Shown: piece by piece, positions 1,221-21,915 of the stretch
How the letters are laid out: each line of letters starts with the position of its first letter
How positions within the stretch are numbered: position 1 is the stretch's first letter
Virus record (IMG/VR): IMGVR_UViG_3300030380_001611
Coordinates: 1 to 24,730 of that record
Direction: 5' to 3' (one strand)
Origin: a virus
Length of the DNA stretch: 24,730 nt
The notes under the pieces: model-generated
The model's input: only the letters and a program-made list of their open reading frames with translations
Told to the model about the DNA's origin: nothing
Databases searched by the model: none
Position numbers and translations under genes: made by a program

Positions 1221-3350
1221 ATGATATACAAAGTTAAAAGAAAGAATATGAAAAAACAACCTAGAAAGAAATTTCAAACTGGGGATGAAGCTAGAAAATT
1301 TGAAAATATTCCTACAGCTTCACAACCAGCTCAACAACAAATAGGTGCTAGACAACAAAGAGCTGATACTTTTGTTGCTAAACAAGTAGAAACACCTGAA
1401 GTAGCTACAACAGCTCAACAAACTTATACACCTCAAACAGTTCAAACTAATGAAATGTTATCAGGTACAACTATGGCAGCACCTACTGCTGTTACAGATA
1501 CAAGTATTTCTGCAGCTCCAATAACTGCAGCTACACCTGGAACATCTACACAGGTTGCTACTCCAGCTTCTTTAACTGCATCTACAATGACAGCTCAAAC
1601 AGGAACTGCTTCACAAGCTACAGCACAAACAGGTTCAGTTAGTACTCCAGCACAAGTTGCTTCAGTTACTGGAACATTAAGTGGAACTGCTACAGGTGCT
1701 ACAGCTACACCAACATCTTCTGCAGTTGCTCAAGCAGCACAAGGACAATTATCTTCAGGAGCATTAGCACAAGTTATTAGTGGAACTTCAGCAACAGTTA
1801 ATGGACAAACAGCAACTTTACCTGCAGATATTCAAGCAGCAGTTGCAACTAATCCTGCTCAAGTTACTGCAACAATTATGCAACAACCTACTGCTGTACA
1901 AGCATCAGTTGCTTCTTTACCTACAGATGCATTAGTATCTACACAGATTGAAAGTTTATTAACAGGTATTGATACAGGACAAATACCTACATGGGCAAGA
2001 GGTGCTGTTGAAAATGTTGAAAAGAATTTAGCAGCTAGAGGTTTAAGTAAATCTACAATAGCAAGAGAAGCTTTAGTAAATGCAATTATACAATCAGCAT
2101 TACCAATAGCTCAATCAAATGCTACAGCTCTACAACAAAGAGCTTCACAAAATTTAACAAATGAACAACAAGCTAGTGTTTTAACTGCTCAACAAAATTT
2201 TCAAACTCAGTTAGTTAATGCTGAGAATGACATGAAAGCTAAAATGTTAACTGGGCAATATGCTCAAGAGATAACTAAGCTTAATGCAATGAATAGTCAA
2301 CAAGCTATCTTAGCTTCAGCTAATCAACAACAACAAGTAAGATTAGCAAACTTAGCAAATTTACAACAAGCTGGTTTAACTAATGCACAGTTACAACAGC
2401 AAATGTCTTTAGCAAATTTAAGTGCTAATCAACAAACTGCTTTAGCAAATGCACAGACTACAGCAGGAATGGATGTTTTAAATTTAAACAATCAACAACA
2501 AACTGCAATATCTAATTCTAATTTATTTAGAACTTTTGAATTACAAAATTTAAATAATACTCAACAAGCTACTATGCAAAATGCTGTTCAATTAGCTACT
2601 ATGGATATGGCTAATTTAACTAATGCACAACAAAGAGCTGTATTAAATGCTCAAGCATTCTTACAAATGGATATGACTAATCTAACTAATACTCAACAAA
2701 CAGAAGTATTAAATACACAGAATAGACAACAAGCAATGTTATCAGACCAAGCTGCTGCAAATGCTGCAGGTCAATTTAATGCAACAAGTACAAATCAAAC
2801 TAATCAATTTGTAAATAGTTTAGCAGCTACAATCAATCAACAAAATGCTGCACGAAATGATGCAATGACACAATATAATATTAGTGAAGGAAATAGAATA
2901 GCTGCATTAAATCAAGGTAATAATTTAGAGGCTCAAAGATTACAAAATACTTTGAATACTCAAATAGGACAATTTAATGAACAATTAAATTTTAACAGAA
3001 ATCAATTTAATACACAAAACTCTTTAGCTATTGAACAATCAAATGTAGCATGGAGAAGACAATTAAATCAAGCTAACACAGCAGGAATAAATGCTGTTAA
3101 TCAAGCTAATGCAATGAATGCATTTAATTTAAGTAATCAGGCACTATCATTTGTATGGCAAGAAATGAGAGATGCAGCTAAATGGGAATATGAGTCTGCT
3201 CAAAGTGAACAAGAAAGACAAACAAATTTAGCTATAGCAGCTTTAGGAAACGAAGCTGTATCAGATTCTAATAGAGCAAAAACTTTAGAAACATTAGGTG
3301 GTTTTGCTTTAGATATATGGGAAAGAATAAGTCCACCTACGTCTAGTTAA
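1221..3350 (+). CDS. Large Gln/Asn/Ala-rich virion structural protein with 22-residue helical repeats
   Basis: 709 residues from ATG 1221; an in-frame ATG at 1248 is an alternative start. The N-terminal 50 residues are basic. About residues 60-215 are low-complexity Thr/Ala/Ser/Gln. A more ordered segment follows (about 255-310), with IPTWARGAVE, ARGLSKSTIARE and NAIIQSALPIAQSNA, a motif I recall from structural proteins of marine phages. Residues 400-509 are five tandem 22-residue repeats of the form L-x-N-x-Q-Q-x-x-x-x-N, then more Gln/Asn-rich helix. No catalytic motif is visible. The likely role is an internal virion or tail-associated protein with a long helical rod; in T7 the corresponding gene region encodes internal core proteins. 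Composition suggests an extended flexible protein, not an enzyme. Confidence 0.6.
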   Translation: MIYKVKRKNMKKQPRKKFQTGDEARKFENIPTASQPAQQQIGARQQRADTFVAKQVETPEVATTAQQTYTPQTVQTNEMLSGTTMAAPTAVTDTSISAAPITAATPGTSTQVATPASLTASTMTAQTGTASQATAQTGSVSTPAQVASVTGTLSGTATGATATPTSSAVAQAAQGQLSSGALAQVISGTSATVNGQTATLPADIQAAVATNPAQVTATIMQQPTAVQASVASLPTDALVSTQIESLLTGIDTGQIPTWARGAVENVEKNLAARGLSKSTIAREALVNAIIQSALPIAQSNATALQQRASQNLTNEQQASVLTAQQNFQTQLVNAENDMKAKMLTGQYAQEITKLNAMNSQQAILASANQQQQVRLANLANLQQAGLTNAQLQQQMSLANLSANQQTALANAQTTAGMDVLNLNNQQQTAISNSNLFRTFELQNLNNTQQATMQNAVQLATMDMANLTNAQQRAVLNAQAFLQMDMTNLTNTQQTEVLNTQNRQQAMLSDQAAANAAGQFNATSTNQTNQFVNSLAATINQQNAARNDAMTQYNISEGNRIAALNQGNNLEAQRLQNTLNTQIGQFNEQLNFNRNQFNTQNSLAIEQSNVAWRRQLNQANTAGINAVNQANAMNAFNLSNQALSFVWQEMRDAAKWEYESAQSEQERQTNLAIAALGNEAVSDSNRAKTLETLGGFALDIWERISPPTSS
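2418..2747 (+). repeat. Five tandem 66-bp units encoding 22-residue (2 x 11) repeats
   Basis: Within the 709-aa protein, five consecutive units of exactly 22 codons begin LSANQQ, LNNQQQ, LNNTQQ, LTNAQQ and LTNTQQ. Each has Leu at position 1, Gln-Gln at 5-6 and usually Asn at 11. The period is constant with no insertions, although the DNA has diverged. A 22-residue period equals two hendecads (11-mers), typical of straight right-handed coiled-coil rods. Looser Asn/Gln-rich helix flanks the block on both sides. Confidence 0.75.
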
Positions 3351-8033: not shown

Positions 8034-11000
8034 ATGGCAGAACAAAATCAAATAAACACTTCAGCAAGTTCTGAATTTGATATATTTCAAAAACCAACTC
8101 CTATTATTTCTGAATCTGAATCCATTGTTGTACCACAAATAGAAGAACAAAAAACTAAAGAAGTAAAACAAGAAGAAGACGAATTTAGTATTTTTCAAAA
8201 ACCTACTATTAAAGTTGACCAACAACAAGAAGATGAGTTTAGTATTTTTCAAAAACCTAATCAATCAATTGTAAGCACTCCTCAAAAAACAAAAGAATTT
8301 AGTAACGCAGCCAAAATAAGATATGGTATTGATAAACAAAATACTTTCTTTGGTAATGCATATCGTGTTGCTAAAGCTGGAGTTCAAGCTGCATTTGACG
8401 CTGAAAAAGATTTTAAAGATTATATAAAATATAATTACGAAAAAGAACAATTAAAATTAAAACAAAAATATGGAGAGTTAGCATCAGGTGCTTATGATGA
8501 TGACACTTTAGTAAAAGCTGCAGAGTTTGCAACTTTTATGACAGACCCTTTTTATATTCTTGCTTACATGACTCCATGGGGAAGAGCAGCAACAGCTTCA
8601 TTTAAAGGATTAGCAGCCGTATCAGGTACAACAGTTGGACTAGATGTTATGTTAGACCAACTTGCTACAACAGGAACTATTGATGCAAAAAATGTTGCAC
8701 TCTCAGCAGGAGCTGCTTCAGTTCTTGGACCAGCATCTGTTAAAGCTTTTAATGGTATTAGTAAATTATTACCTGGTGCAGATAAAAGACAATTATTAAA
8801 AGTAATTGGTATTGTTGAAGGAAAAAAAGCAAAAGATTTAGGTATTAGTAAAGCTGAGTTTCATAAATTACAAAAGATAGCAGGTGATAAAGAAATATTA
8901 TCTTTAAATAAATCTATTAAAAATGCTGAAATAAATTTTGTTAAACCTATTGCAGAACAAACAAAAATATTTAATGCTGCAGAAAAAAGAATTGAAAATC
9001 AAATTGCTAAATTTAAAAAAAGTAAAGCTAAAAAATCTGTAGCAAAAGTTACTGCATTAGAAACTAAAAAACAAAAAGATGCAGAAGCATTTAAATCTGC
9101 TCAAAAGGCTTTTTGGAAAACACAAAGTAAAGAAGCACAAAAAGTAAATGAACTTATTGCTAAAAGAGAATTTACTTATTTAAAAAAATTAAAAGAATCT
9201 CAAAGTTTAACTCAAAATGTTGCACAAGCTGTAGTATCAGCTACAGTTAGACCTGCTTTAGGTGGTGCTATTGGTTATGGTTTTGGTAAATTGTGGGGTG
9301 GTGATGATGCTAATTTAAATAATTGGATGTTAGCTGGAGCTACTTTAGGACAACTCCAAAAGATGATACAAAAAAGTGGTAAAGTATTTGCTAATAATGA
9401 AAAAGGATTTTTAAAAAATATTATTTATAATGAAGCAACAAGATTATCTTTTCAAAAAGCTAGAGAATTAACTGCAACTACAACTTCTACAAAATTAAAT
9501 GCCTTTGGTGGACCTACTTCTGACTTTGGTAAAAGATTATTTCAAGAATTAGATTCTCCTTTTACTAAAAATTCTTCTTCATTTATTGCTGACAATATAA
9601 AACAAACATATGGTTCAAGAATTTTTAATATGTTGCAAGGTACTACAGCTCAAGAACAACAACTTGCATTAAATATTGTTAGAGGTTCTAAGAAAAAAGC
9701 AACACCAAAAGTTAATAAATTAGTTAGAGATATAAAATCATATTTAAATGATTTTTTAGGTGAGGCAAGAGCAGTAAATATTGGATTAAGAAATGATAAA
9801 GGTCAAAGAATTGATACAATAAAAGATTATTTTCCTAGAGTATGGCAATGGGATGCTGTTAAAAAAAATCCTGAAGAGTTTAAAAAAACTCTTGCTAGTA
9901 TTTTTAAAGAAGTTGGAAAGCCAGGTCAGAAAAAAAATCCTAAAGGAGCTGCAGAAGGATTTTATGAAACATTAAATAAAAGTATTGGAGATGGTTTTTA
10001 TAACAAAATTGCTATCAATGATATTGTAAGTAATATATTAGCAGGAAAAACATCTAATAAATCTATTATAAAAAATTTACCATTAGCTGATGCATTACAA
10101 ACAAAAAGAACTTTAACAGGACCTTATGCTAAAGTTGAAAAAATTTTAGAAGATAAAGGTTACTTAGTAAATGATGTTAGTTCCATATTAAATAATTTAA
10201 TTAATTCAAGTGCTAATTCAATAGCGTTTGCTAAAAATTTTGGTAATCAAGGACAATTTTTAAATACATATTTTAAAAGAATTGTTGATAAATATAAAGG
10301 TAATCCAAATGCTGGAGAGTTAGCTTCAAAAGAAATTGGATTAATTATGAAAAGTATTGATGGATTTTTTGATAGATATGGACAAGTAAGAAGAGGAGCT
10401 GTTCAAACAGGTGCAGGTATTTTATCAACTATAGCTAATTTAAATATGTTGGATAGAGTAACTATTGCTTCATTAGGTGATTTAGTTCAACCTTTTACAA
10501 ACTCAAATAATTTTACAAGTTGGATAAGAGCATTAAAAGATACAAGTATTAAATTAAAAAATCAAACAGGTGCTGCAAGAGACTTTGCCATTGCAAGTGA
10601 TAAAGCTGTTCAACAATCATTATTAAAAACTTTATCACCACTAGATGATGTAACTAATACAGCAAAATTAATGGGAACAAAAGGCACATTAAGAAAAGCT
10701 AACGAAGCTGGTTTTAAATTTATGGGTCTTCAATGGTTAACAGGTTTTGCAAGAAGATATGCTTATAATACTGGTGCAATAGATGCATTTATTTCATCAA
10801 AAAAATTAGCAACATATGCTTCAAGAAATAATTTAACTGATAATAAAGCATTAAGATTAATAGGTGATGTATCTAAATATGGATTATCCCAAAATCAAGC
10901 ATTGCGTTTAGGTAAATTTAATAACTTTGATGAGGCTATTAAAACTAAATTTGGTAAAGATACTTTAAATAATGCAGGAATTGTTGCTTCTAATAGAGAT

Positions 11001-12374
11001 GCATTAATACCTCAAGTATCAAATAGATTATTATTTACACAATCAAGAGACCCACTTGTTAGATTAATGGGTCAGTTTATGTCATGGACTTTAGCTAAGT
11101 CAGCACAAACAAATAAACTATTACAAAGAATTGAAAATGGTGATACAAGACAATTAGTAAAATTATTAGCAGCCGTTCCTGTATATGGTAGCATACAACA
11201 ATTAAGAGAGATTGCTAAATACGGAGAAGTTAGAACTGATTTAGATACTCAATCTGATAAATGGTTTGCCGAGTCTTTAAGATTGTCAGGTATAGCAGGA
11301 ACATTACCTGAATTATTTATAGGTAGATTAACAGGACCAGGTTCAAGAGAACCTTGGTATTTGTTTGCACCAGCATTTAGTATTTTAACAGATGCAGGAG
11401 ATATAGGTAAAGATGCTGCTTTAGGAGATTTTGATAAAGCATGGAGAAGATTTAGTGAAAGAATTGCTCCTTTACCAACATGGAGAAGATGGATTGAAAA
11501 ATTATTTCCAGGAATGGATTATAAAGCACCTATTCCTGAAAGTTCTTTTAATAAAAGAATTGGATTTAATACAGGAGATGTAGTAGATATAAATATGGCA
11601 GCTCAAAAATCTGCAGAAGAAGCTATGAAAGAAGGATTTCCTACATATCGAAATGAAAAAGGTGAAGATATTTCACTTAAAGAAATGGAAGCAAATATTA
11701 AAAAACAGGAGAAAGAAAAAATGAATATAAAAGATACAGTAAAAGCTACTGTGGTTGCTGGAGCATTGGCAACAGGAGTAAATGCTGATGTATCTAAAGC
11801 ACAAGATAATTTCTTGTTACCTAAAGAGAAACCTAAAGTAGAAGTAGTTCAAAAGGAAAAACCTAAAGACTATAGTAAACTTTCTGAGTTACCTGAAGAT
11901 AAAAAGAAATTTCTTTTAGATAGTGCTTCAGTAATATATCAGAACAATCAAGGTAAAGATGTACCTTCAGATATTTTAATTGCAATTGCATTAGAAGAAA
12001 CTGGATATGGTACTAGCAGATTCTATAAAGAAGGTAATAATTACTTTAATATGGTTGCTGAAAAAGGTGATGATAGAATAAAAGCAAAAGGTGATAACAC
12101 ACAAGTTGCTAAGTTTAAATCACCATCAGAGAGCTTAGATAAATTTTACACTTGGGTAGAAAATAAACCTCACTATGAAAATGTTAGAAAAACATTAGAA
12201 AAATATAAAGAAGGTGAAGCTACTAAGGGTGATATTATTGACGCAATCTCAGATACAGGTTGGGCAGAGAACCCAAACTGGTCTAAGAATGTAAAATCAA
12301 TACTAAAATCTAGAGTAAATGGCAAACACTCAGAAGAGTTGAAGAATCTTGAAAACTCACTATTTAAAAAGTAG
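8034..12374 (+). CDS. Very large internal virion protein with C-terminal glucosaminidase-like domain
   Basis: 1446 residues, close in size to T7 gp16 (about 1318 aa). The N-terminus carries three copies of EF(D/S)IFQKP at residues 14-21, 50-57 and 68-75. A long mixed helical region with a glycine-rich hydrophobic stretch (ALGGAIGYGFGKLWGG) follows. The C-terminus, about residues 1289-1446, resembles the FlgJ/Bax-type glucosaminidase fold (PF01832): VIYQNNQG, SDILIAIALEETGYGTS with candidate catalytic Glu1321/Glu1322, NNYFNMVA and SPSESLDKFYTWV. In T7 gp16 the cell-wall lytic domain is at the N-terminus; here it is at the other end. The likely role is an ejection protein that opens peptidoglycan during DNA entry. 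An embedded start at 11721 may also give a free lysin (listed separately). Confidence 0.8.
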   Translation: MAEQNQINTSASSEFDIFQKPTPIISESESIVVPQIEEQKTKEVKQEEDEFSIFQKPTIKVDQQQEDEFSIFQKPNQSIVSTPQKTKEFSNAAKIRYGIDKQNTFFGNAYRVAKAGVQAAFDAEKDFKDYIKYNYEKEQLKLKQKYGELASGAYDDDTLVKAAEFATFMTDPFYILAYMTPWGRAATASFKGLAAVSGTTVGLDVMLDQLATTGTIDAKNVALSAGAASVLGPASVKAFNGISKLLPGADKRQLLKVIGIVEGKKAKDLGISKAEFHKLQKIAGDKEILSLNKSIKNAEINFVKPIAEQTKIFNAAEKRIENQIAKFKKSKAKKSVAKVTALETKKQKDAEAFKSAQKAFWKTQSKEAQKVNELIAKREFTYLKKLKESQSLTQNVAQAVVSATVRPALGGAIGYGFGKLWGGDDANLNNWMLAGATLGQLQKMIQKSGKVFANNEKGFLKNIIYNEATRLSFQKARELTATTTSTKLNAFGGPTSDFGKRLFQELDSPFTKNSSSFIADNIKQTYGSRIFNMLQGTTAQEQQLALNIVRGSKKKATPKVNKLVRDIKSYLNDFLGEARAVNIGLRNDKGQRIDTIKDYFPRVWQWDAVKKNPEEFKKTLASIFKEVGKPGQKKNPKGAAEGFYETLNKSIGDGFYNKIAINDIVSNILAGKTSNKSIIKNLPLADALQTKRTLTGPYAKVEKILEDKGYLVNDVSSILNNLINSSANSIAFAKNFGNQGQFLNTYFKRIVDKYKGNPNAGELASKEIGLIMKSIDGFFDRYGQVRRGAVQTGAGILSTIANLNMLDRVTIASLGDLVQPFTNSNNFTSWIRALKDTSIKLKNQTGAARDFAIASDKAVQQSLLKTLSPLDDVTNTAKLMGTKGTLRKANEAGFKFMGLQWLTGFARRYAYNTGAIDAFISSKKLATYASRNNLTDNKALRLIGDVSKYGLSQNQALRLGKFNNFDEAIKTKFGKDTLNNAGIVASNRDALIPQVSNRLLFTQSRDPLVRLMGQFMSWTLAKSAQTNKLLQRIENGDTRQLVKLLAAVPVYGSIQQLREIAKYGEVRTDLDTQSDKWFAESLRLSGIAGTLPELFIGRLTGPGSREPWYLFAPAFSILTDAGDIGKDAALGDFDKAWRRFSERIAPLPTWRRWIEKLFPGMDYKAPIPESSFNKRIGFNTGDVVDINMAAQKSAEEAMKEGFPTYRNEKGEDISLKEMEANIKKQEKEKMNIKDTVKATVVAGALATGVNADVSKAQDNFLLPKEKPKVEVVQKEKPKDYSKLSELPEDKKKFLLDSASVIYQNNQGKDVPSDILIAIALEETGYGTSRFYKEGNNYFNMVAEKGDDRIKAKGDNTQVAKFKSPSESLDKFYTWVENKPHYENVRKTLEKYKEGEATKGDIIDAISDTGWAENPNWSKNVKSILKSRVNGKHSEELKNLENSLFKK
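8073..8258 (+). repeat. Three copies of an EF(D/S)IFQKP peptide motif
   Basis: In the 1446-aa protein, residues 14-21, 50-57 and 68-75 (DNA 8073-8096, 8181-8204, 8235-8258) read EF-D/S-IFQKP. The last two share the longer form EDEFSIFQKP. The linkers are Glu/Gln/Lys-rich and look disordered. Repeated short aromatic motifs in a disordered tail often serve as docking peptides; the partner is not known. Confidence 0.8.
11721..12374 (+). CDS. Possible nested in-frame gene: exported glucosaminidase/endolysin (217 aa)
   Basis: Inside the 1446-aa virion gene, codon 1230 is an ATG preceded by AGGAG (11707-11711) with a 9-base gap, as good as or better than most gene starts in this window. The peptide that would begin there reads like a Sec signal: MNIKDTVK, then a hydrophobic core ATVVAGALATGV, then N-A-D with a plausible cut after VNA. 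A Lys/Pro/Glu-rich linker and the whole glucosaminidase-like domain follow to the shared stop. This would yield a free, periplasm-directed lysin of normal endolysin size from the same frame. No other lysin is visible in the window. The motifs are seen; use of the start is inference. Confidence 0.4.
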   Translation: MNIKDTVKATVVAGALATGVNADVSKAQDNFLLPKEKPKVEVVQKEKPKDYSKLSELPEDKKKFLLDSASVIYQNNQGKDVPSDILIAIALEETGYGTSRFYKEGNNYFNMVAEKGDDRIKAKGDNTQVAKFKSPSESLDKFYTWVENKPHYENVRKTLEKYKEGEATKGDIIDAISDTGWAENPNWSKNVKSILKSRVNGKHSEELKNLENSLFKK

Positions 12375-12403
12375 TTGACATTAAAGATATTTCTCTCTAT
12401 AAT
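12375..12403 (+). promoter_or_regulatory. Consensus sigma70 promoter for hsp20 / lysis-side module
   Basis: TTGACA at 12375-12380, a spacer of exactly 17 bases and TATAAT at 12398-12403: a perfect match to the bacterial housekeeping promoter. It begins right after the stop codon of the 1446-aa gene (TAG 12372-12374). Transcription should start near 12410, giving a leader of about 53 bases before hsp20. It would allow host polymerase to express hsp20 and the genes after it independently of upstream virion genes. Confidence 0.85.
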
Positions 12404-12462: not shown

Positions 12463-12882
12463 ATGACACGATATAATTTAATAAACTTTGACCCATTTAA
12501 AAACTTCTCTATCGGTTTTGATAGAATGTTTGACTCACTAAATGAGGTCTCACAAATAAACACTTCTAATTTTCCACCTTATAATATAAGAAAAATTAAG
12601 GATGGTCAATATCAAATAGAGATGGCATTAGCTGGGTTCTCTAAGAAAGACATTAAGTGTGAGTTGCAAGATGGCGTACTTACAATTAATGCTAAGAAAG
12701 AAGATAAAGATAACGATACTTTAATACATCAAGGTATTGCATCTAGAAGTGTTGTTAGAAAATTTACTCTTTCAGAGTACATTAAAGTAGAAGGTGCTGA
12801 CTTTATAGACGGAGTTCTTAAAGTTAAACTCTTTGAAGAATTACCTGAAGAGAAAAAAATAAAAACAATTAAGATTAAGTAA
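12463..12882 (+). CDS. hsp20: Small heat-shock protein, IbpA/Hsp20 family
   Basis: 139 residues, the normal length for IbpA-type proteins. The N-terminus FDPFKNFSIGFDRMFDSL matches the IbpA/B start. The alpha-crystallin domain runs from about residue 38 (PPYNIRKIKDGQYQIEMALAGFSKKDI) through GVLTINAKK, YLYQGIA-like IHQGIASRSVVRKFTL and GADFIDGVLKVKLFEELPEEKK. ATP-independent holdases of this family bind unfolding proteins in the cytoplasm. In a phage the likely role is keeping virion or replication proteins, or host proteins, soluble late in infection. Hsp20 genes are known in marine phages. It is the first gene after the promoter at 12375; AAAGGA precedes the ATG. Confidence 0.95.
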   Translation: MTRYNLINFDPFKNFSIGFDRMFDSLNEVSQINTSNFPPYNIRKIKDGQYQIEMALAGFSKKDIKCELQDGVLTINAKKEDKDNDTLIHQGIASRSVVRKFTLSEYIKVEGADFIDGVLKVKLFEELPEEKKIKTIKIK

Positions 12883-12948: not shown

Positions 12949-13320
12949 ATGATTCCATATAAACTATTATTCAATATAGGTTCAAAAGCTGTTGGCACTT
13001 ATATGAACAGACGTAAAGAAAAGAGTGAAAGAAAACACGCTATTGCTTTACAAGAGATGGCAACAGGAAACGAAAGAGCAAAAAGAAATGGTTCTTTATT
13101 CTTAGATTTAATTCTAGGTTCATTTATACTTGCACCATTAGGAATACTTGGCTATGCTACATTTTGGGGAGACCAAGATATGTTAGCTAAAGTAGAATTT
13201 TATTTTGAACAACTTAAAAATATACCTGAGACTTATCTTTGGTTAATCTTTATAGTTGTTGGAGGTAACTACGGAATATCCGTAACTAATTTATTAACAG
13301 GGAAAAAGTTTAAAAAATAA
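12949..13320 (+). CDS. Holin-like membrane protein (123 aa)
   Basis: AAAGGA lies just upstream of the ATG. The N-terminus is basic and helical (MNRRKEKSERKHAIALQEM). Two hydrophobic helices follow at about residues 49-72 (SLFLDLILGSFILAPLGILGYATFW) and 96-112 (YLWLIFIVVGGNYGIS), with a short Lys-rich tail. A cytoplasmic basic N-terminus, two or three membrane helices and a conserved-looking GxxYGI near the C-terminus resemble the '3TM holin' families in marine phages and gene transfer agents. Its place downstream of virion genes and before an i-spanin-like protein supports a lysis role. The exact family was not verified. Confidence 0.6.
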   Translation: MIPYKLLFNIGSKAVGTYMNRRKEKSERKHAIALQEMATGNERAKRNGSLFLDLILGSFILAPLGILGYATFWGDQDMLAKVEFYFEQLKNIPETYLWLIFIVVGGNYGISVTNLLTGKKFKK

Positions 13321-13407: not shown

Positions 13408-13770
13408 ATGAAAGTATCTGAGAACACAGCAGTATCAATGCCAATAAAAAATATGATTGGTATTGTTGTAGCTGTATCTATGGGTATCTTTGCATATACA
13501 GAATTGACTAGCCGATTAACAAGTCTTGAAACATCAAGAGAATTATTTCAAGCTGATTTACTTAAGAAGTCTGAGCAGTTACCTGTTGACCAAGAACAGC
13601 TAATGTTGTTGGAGGACCTTTATAAGACTACCGAGAAGATAGAAAAAAGAATTGAAGATATGATGCACAATAAAGTCAACATACAATTCTTACAAAAACA
13701 AATGGAAAAAGCTTTAGCAGATATAGAAGTATTAAAAGATAAGGTAAGAGCAAATGGGAAGAATCACTAG
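13408..13770 (+). CDS. Membrane-anchored coiled-coil protein, i-spanin-like (120 aa)
   Basis: The start MKVSENTAVSMPIKNMIGI runs into one transmembrane segment (about residues 14-31, NMIGIVVAVSMGIFAYTEL). The rest is charged helix with heptad hydrophobics, first around LTSRLTSLETSRELF, then VNIQFLQKQMEKALADIEVLKDKV. An N-terminal anchor with a long coiled-coil outside is the topology of inner-membrane spanins. I also recall the S-E-x-T-x-[VI]-S-M-P-[IL] start from a conserved marine phage protein. It lies among holin-like and small exported proteins, which fits lysis. A virion role cannot be excluded. Confidence 0.55.
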   Translation: MKVSENTAVSMPIKNMIGIVVAVSMGIFAYTELTSRLTSLETSRELFQADLLKKSEQLPVDQEQLMLLEDLYKTTEKIEKRIEDMMHNKVNIQFLQKQMEKALADIEVLKDKVRANGKNH

Positions 13771-21167: not shown

Positions 21168-21566
21168 TTATAAACTATAACATCTCTCATGGAACAATTC
21201 TTTTATAGGTATAACTACACATTTACTAGCCCTGTAATCACCTATATTTTTTGTATGTGTCTTCTTATATTTCTTCACTATTTTTCTTAATGTTGATACT
21301 CTGAATACTAACATACAATATTCTTTATTTGTTTGTTCAAGTATATGAAACCACCATTTAGCATCTGTCTTATCAATACCACTAGGTTTACCTCTATACT
21401 CATACTCAATTGCTACGTTCCCTGTTTTTCTCCACCAACTCCTTTCCGTTTTAACTTCAATCTTATCTGAAGATAACAGTTCAGCAACTCTCTTCTCTCT
21501 AACCTGACCATACTTTAAGTCTATATCAAACTTAGCATTGTCATTTAATTTAATTTTACTTTTCAT
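21168..21566 (-). CDS. PD-(D/E)XK-type nuclease, small (132 aa)
   Basis: The frame opens with TTG at 21572; the in-frame ATG at 21566, with AGG eight bases before it, is preferred. The core reads GQVREKRVAELL, then IEVKTE (Glu37-x-Lys39), SWWRKTGNVAIEYEYRGKPSGI and TDAKWWFHI. Helix with RE, then strand with E-x-K, then a T-G-N-x-x-I-E motif is the layout of a small restriction-fold nuclease family I recall from cyanophages and pelagiphages. Its place just upstream of ssb suggests a role like T7 endonuclease I or a junction resolvase. Which of these is not determined. Confidence 0.65.
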   Translation of the reverse strand: MKSKIKLNDNAKFDIDLKYGQVREKRVAELLSSDKIEVKTERSWWRKTGNVAIEYEYRGKPSGIDKTDAKWWFHILEQTNKEYCMLVFRVSTLRKIVKKYKKTHTKNIGDYRASKCVVIPIKELFHERCYSL

Positions 21567-21915
21567 TTTCAAACCTACAAATATACTCTGTTAAAAATTT
21601 ATTTAAGTTTTTAGATTTAAATACTTTTTTTACATTTCCATTTTTTAATTTTTTAAATATTCTACACACCCAATATGCTGACATATTTCCATTCTCACAA
21701 ACCTCAACAAAGTATGGGTCTTTAGTATCAAACCAAGCGTTAGCCTCTTCAACTATTCTTCTTCTACTCAAACCCCAAGCGTGAATATCTATATCCAACG
21801 CATCCATAATTGCTCTTACTATAACACTTCTCCATAGTAAAACTTCAGGTGTAATATAATATCCTTCACCCTTACCTTCTTGGAAAGCATTTATAACATT
21901 AGTATTAATAATCAT
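21556..21915 (-). CDS. Conserved phage hypothetical protein (119 aa)
   Basis: A helical N-terminal half has EVLLWRSVIVRAIMDAL, then RRRIVEEANAWFDTKDPYFVEVCENGNMSAYWVCRIFKKL and a Lys-rich tail. The pattern L-W-R-x-V-I-x-x-A-I-x-D-A-L ... E-A-x-x-W-F ... [DY]-F-x-x-[VI]-C is one I recall from short phage and prophage proteins of unknown function. The C-terminus overlaps the nuclease gene by 11 bases. A DNA-binding or regulatory role is possible but unproven. Confidence 0.65.
   Translation of the reverse strand: MIINTNVINAFQEGKGEGYYITPEVLLWRSVIVRAIMDALDIDIHAWGLSRRRIVEEANAWFDTKDPYFVEVCENGNMSAYWVCRIFKKLKNGNVKKVFKSKNLNKFLTEYICRFENEK

Follow-up and report, generated by a model that had tools for sequence, protein, structure and literature searches.

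A conserved internal start and export-type leader before a predicted lysin at the end of a long, inferred virion-protein gene of ocean phages infecting SAR11-type bacteria

Can a single phage gene supply both a particle-bound wall-cutting enzyme and a free one for bursting the host? This question is raised by a 24,730-nucleotide virus record (IMG/VR IMGVR_UViG_3300030380_001611, positions 1 to 24,730; hereafter the window), which resembles part of the 54-kb Pelagibacter phages HTVC103P, HTVC104P, and HTVC115P. An earlier note, made from the letters alone, had pointed out a ribosome site, a start codon, and a Sec-like leader in front of a glucosaminidase domain within a long virion gene, and had proposed that one reading frame may yield both an ejection protein and a free exported endolysin, no other lysin being present in the window. 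The relevant features, all on the plus strand, are the following:

8034..12374 (+), long ORF of 1446 residues, inferred internal virion/ejection protein with a C-terminal muralytic domain, 48% identical over 78% to a hypothetical protein of Pelagibacter phage HTVC104P
11707..11711 (+), AGGAG, Shine-Dalgarno (SD)-like site of the nested start
11721..12374 (+), nested in-frame ORF of 217 residues, proposed free lysin, with the same stop as the long ORF
11721..11786 (+), signal-like leader MNIKDTVKATVVAGALATGVNA, with a possible V-N-A cleavage site, or a SAR-type anchor
11937..12308 (+), FlgJ-type glucosaminidase domain PF01832
11997..11999 (+), codon of the putative catalytic Glu (residue 93 of the nested and 1322 of the full-length product) in LEETGYG
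12375..12403 (+), perfect sigma-70 consensus TTGACA-N17-TATAAT directly after the shared stop
12463..12882 (+), Hsp20 gene (PF00011), the next gene downstream
12949..13320 (+), small membrane protein with one TM-like segment over the threshold (phrog_2524, unknown function), a holin candidate by inference only
13408..13770 (+), small protein with an N-terminal TM-like segment and a charged tail, i-spanin-like by inference only

The observation in the earlier note proved exact: AGGAG, a 9-base gap, and the ATG at 11721-11723 are present, the ATG being codon 1230 of the 1446-codon ORF. The glucosaminidase profile matches with 60.2 bits against a curated cut-off of 30.2 and is the only match of that family in the window. 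The assignment is further supported by the putative catalytic Glu, which occupies an invariant alignment column and aligns with the ALETGWG motif of FlgJ, by sequence matches in the PDB to FlgJ (3vwo, 2zyc), and by a Foldseek search with the predicted structure (3fi7, 2zyc), FlgJ and Auto structures being at the top of the sequence and fold searches. The model leaves residues 1-46 of the nested product below a pLDDT of 50 and gives a confident domain from about residue 50 onward. The nested start has the strongest SD of the 18 in-frame Mets of the ORF (-7.4 kcal/mol, whereas the listed gene starts of this phage average -3.75 kcal/mol), and its 45-nt start region is unstructured (0.0 kcal/mol against an ORF mean of -4.1), as it is in most related lineages. 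A search of the window for RNA families gave no match.

Is the start conserved among relatives? Ten viral contigs encode the C-terminus, and their proteins agree from the internal Met onward (82-99% identity) but hardly before it. A scan with the conserved core of the long protein gave 80 loci (single homologues are numbered L, and searched contigs or records G), whose C-termini form a zone of lysin swapping comprising glucosaminidase, three GH24 subtypes, a pesticin-type lysozyme (PF16754), a phage tail lysozyme (PF18013), and others. A methyltransferase-like domain is often inserted in the long ORF, sometimes before and sometimes after the lysin domain (L012, L014, L021, L024, L038, L059, L063, and others), and in most homologues a recurrent [IL]P-x-K-x-P / PKKKP motif lies between the variable linker and the lysin domain, with or without the leader (e.g., window 11814-11835). 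Many of the C-termini carry M-[NK]-x-K-[DKN], followed by an uncharged Ala/Thr/Val-rich stretch just before the lysin domain. In 28 aligned leader-bearing homologues, Met and Lys4 never vary, and ungapped identity is 13% over the 30 residues before the Met but 62% over the first 8 residues. The leader precedes glucosaminidase in 23 of 27 complete non-redundant tails and GH24 lysozymes in 5 of 22; further members found later also begin with Met.

An SD match of at least 4 nt at a spacing of 4-12 occurs in 24 of 29 leader starts but in only 212 of 1505 other in-frame Mets (Fisher p = 6e-16; as the sequences are related, this value is only indicative). To remove the protein constraint, the six codons before the Met were recoded synonymously at the observed codon usage with one sequence for each of 14 divergent lineages: the summed SD length is 51, compared to 6.7+-5.1 and a maximum of 30 in 5,000 trials, and the duplex energy is -84.3, compared to -23.3+-5.4 and a minimum of -48.3. 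A chance SD is thus rejected, and since spacing and codons differ between lineages, the SD looks selected and not merely inherited. The start unit is, however, not universal among lysin-tailed homologues: in 32 homologues with a lysin but without the leader, no ATG with a good SD lies near the domain, the few weak matches being located far upstream or in sequence where any synonymous coding would give them, with the exception of one TTG in L062. A "KKKPM" subtype of leader keeps the Met and the leader without an SD, although listed genes of the window's phage likewise lack an SD in 14 of 27 cases.

Does the leader resemble an export signal? It has an n-region with the invariant K4 and, in the window's lineage, small residues in GVNA|D, but its best 11-mer has a Kyte-Doolittle value of 1.78, compared to 1.92-2.65 for nine E. 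coli Sec signals used for comparison, and on hydrophobicity alone it ranks only third in the ORF. By a crude rule, 20 of 29 leaders but only 10 of 1498 other Mets look signal-like, one of the 10 being a second Met inside a leader. With 45-73% A/G/S/T in the best 11-mer, the leaders are richer in these residues than the Sec signals, which would also suit a weakly hydrophobic signal-arrest-release anchor.

In 30 searched records, PF01832 or PF00959 matches sit in the long ORF, except in HTVC115P and G013, whose long ORF has no lysin and which possess separate glucosaminidase and GH24 genes in open frames of 184 and 165 codons. In HTVC115P (L013, 36832-38210), adjacent GH24, small hypothetical, and glucosaminidase genes are located in the early region, the glucosaminidase having a hydrophobic N-terminus; a protein similar to the product of the middle gene is encoded in the window at 21168-21572 without the lysins. 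The best proxies for the part of this phage's genome beyond the window are two leader-bearing contigs, and Pfam scans of most ORFs of G028 (49.9 kb) and of the non-structural ORFs of G002 (41 kb) revealed no second lysin. On the other hand, the complete genome of HTVC103P has a GH24 without leader and SD in this ORF as its only recognised lysin, and this group can therefore apparently do without the nested start.

Our preferred explanation, to which we assign a probability of roughly 0.64, is that one reading frame yields two proteins. The full product of 1446 residues would be an internal virion protein whose C-terminal FlgJ-type glucosaminidase opens the wall at entry, while ribosomes would also initiate at ATG 11721 using the AGGAG and make a 217-residue protein with a weak Sec-type or signal-anchor-release leader, which would be exported and act as endolysin at the end of infection. 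The coordinates, the domain, and the evolutionary maintenance of the start signals are established by the sequences, whereas use of the start, export by the leader, presence of the long product in the virion (deduced from gene position and size), and the roles at entry and exit are inferences. The interpretation given in the earlier note is thus supported, strongly so by comparison for the nested start, a second, nested translation product being likely, but only indirectly for the exported endolysin, which is probable but unproven. The loss of leader or ribosome site in relatives keeping the domain, which had been named beforehand as a refuting condition, was partly encountered: four glucosaminidase-bearing homologues (L018, L022, L050, L065) and 17 GH24-bearing ones lack the leader, and the KKKPM subtype lacks the SD. 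Also against the preferred explanation, no free-standing copy of the leader-lysin gene was found in phage records, viral contigs, or genome contigs; L116 is ambiguous, as it has an in-frame stop upstream but within 20 nt of a contig edge, and L039 and L054 carry frame breaks that may be sequence errors (in L039, around 3090-3115, a run of 8 instead of 9 A just after the nested ATG puts the lysin out of frame and might alternatively be a slippery site).

Other explanations are less likely. The nested start may be real while the leader is not an export signal, the short product remaining cytoplasmic and requiring a holin, or serving as virion subunit or partner of the long protein; the weak hydrophobicity, the TM-protein gene two genes downstream, and the complexes of long and short forms in two-product endolysins of Gram-positive phages (PMC9430671) are in line with this view, which we nevertheless regard as unlikely, since an n-region with invariant K4 and a mostly uncharged Ala/Gly/Ser/Thr/Val-rich segment of 13-19 residues recur before different lysin families, which a cytoplasmic form would not need. 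Still less likely is a relic of gene fusion, in which a free lysin gene with SD and leader was joined to the virion gene by loss of the intervening stop and the start signals are vestigial. The onset of conservation at the Met, the lysin swapping at the C-terminus, and the KKKPM leaders, which have lost or never had an SD, agree with it, but a relic would decay, whereas the SD persists across lineages at different registers through rare G-ending codons, beyond all synonymous recodings. About equally unlikely is that the hydrophobic segment is a membrane-inserting helix of the long ejected protein, with Met and SD coincidental: other stretches of similar hydrophobicity occur in the ORF, and ejected proteins of podoviruses such as T7 cross the envelope, but this predicts neither an invariant Met, nor a selected SD, nor the coupling of SD and leader.

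How does this arrangement relate to described systems? Endolysin genes giving two polypeptides by an in-frame internal start (Lys170, CTP1L, CD27L, LysIME-EF1, Ms6 LysA; PMC9430671, PMC4777826, PMC7098653) share with the locus, as far as sequence features go, an internal start with its own RBS, a shared stop codon, and a C-terminal product. There, the long product is itself an endolysin and in five of seven cases the short one is only its cell-wall-binding part, in Gram-positive or mycobacterial phages; here, the long product is an inferred virion protein whose only Pfam domain over cut-off is the C-terminal glucosaminidase, so that it does not correspond to an endolysin with a C-terminal cell-wall-binding domain, and the short one holds the catalytic domain and its own leader, in a Gram-negative host. 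In the papers searched, no two-product endolysin gene joined to a virion protein was found. Exported endolysins of the Sec or signal-arrest-release type likewise have N-terminal charged residues and an uncharged Ala/Gly-rich segment before a muralytic domain, but those described are encoded by separate genes, whereas the putative leader here is nested. Internal virion proteins of the T7 gp16 type are also very long, encoded late in the morphogenesis cluster, and equipped with a wall-degrading domain; no PHROG or PDB sequence match was obtained for the long protein, and the model of its core, made without the two rows from annotated phage records, had a pLDDT of 53.7, too uncertain for a fold search. 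In the present ORF, the domain is C-terminal and exchanged among at least four Pfam families, and T7 has a separate endolysin gene. HTVC103P, HTVC104P, and HTVC115P show the same gene order around a homologous long ORF (48% identity for 103P and 104P, 27% for 115P), but 103P and 104P end in a leaderless GH24 and 115P has no lysin in the ORF and two separate lysin genes.

In its broadest form, which we consider only slightly more likely than not, this reading implies that one gene supplies the entry enzyme as the C-terminus of an internal virion protein and the exit enzyme as a nested exported product, with the leader-plus-start cassette combined with different lysin families across an abundant ocean phage group. 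If true, entry and exit wall enzymes, which are usually encoded separately, would be one coding sequence read from two starts. Gene callers would hide the second product, so that HTVC103P-type phages look as if they had no endolysin. It would offer a testable answer to how these phages may lyse SAR11 cells, with the leaderless relatives as a natural contrast. The perfect sigma-70 consensus promoter that begins right after the shared stop codon, before the Hsp20 gene, recurs as a 12/12 match in 16 of 58 distinct homologous intergenic regions and in none of 174 control windows.
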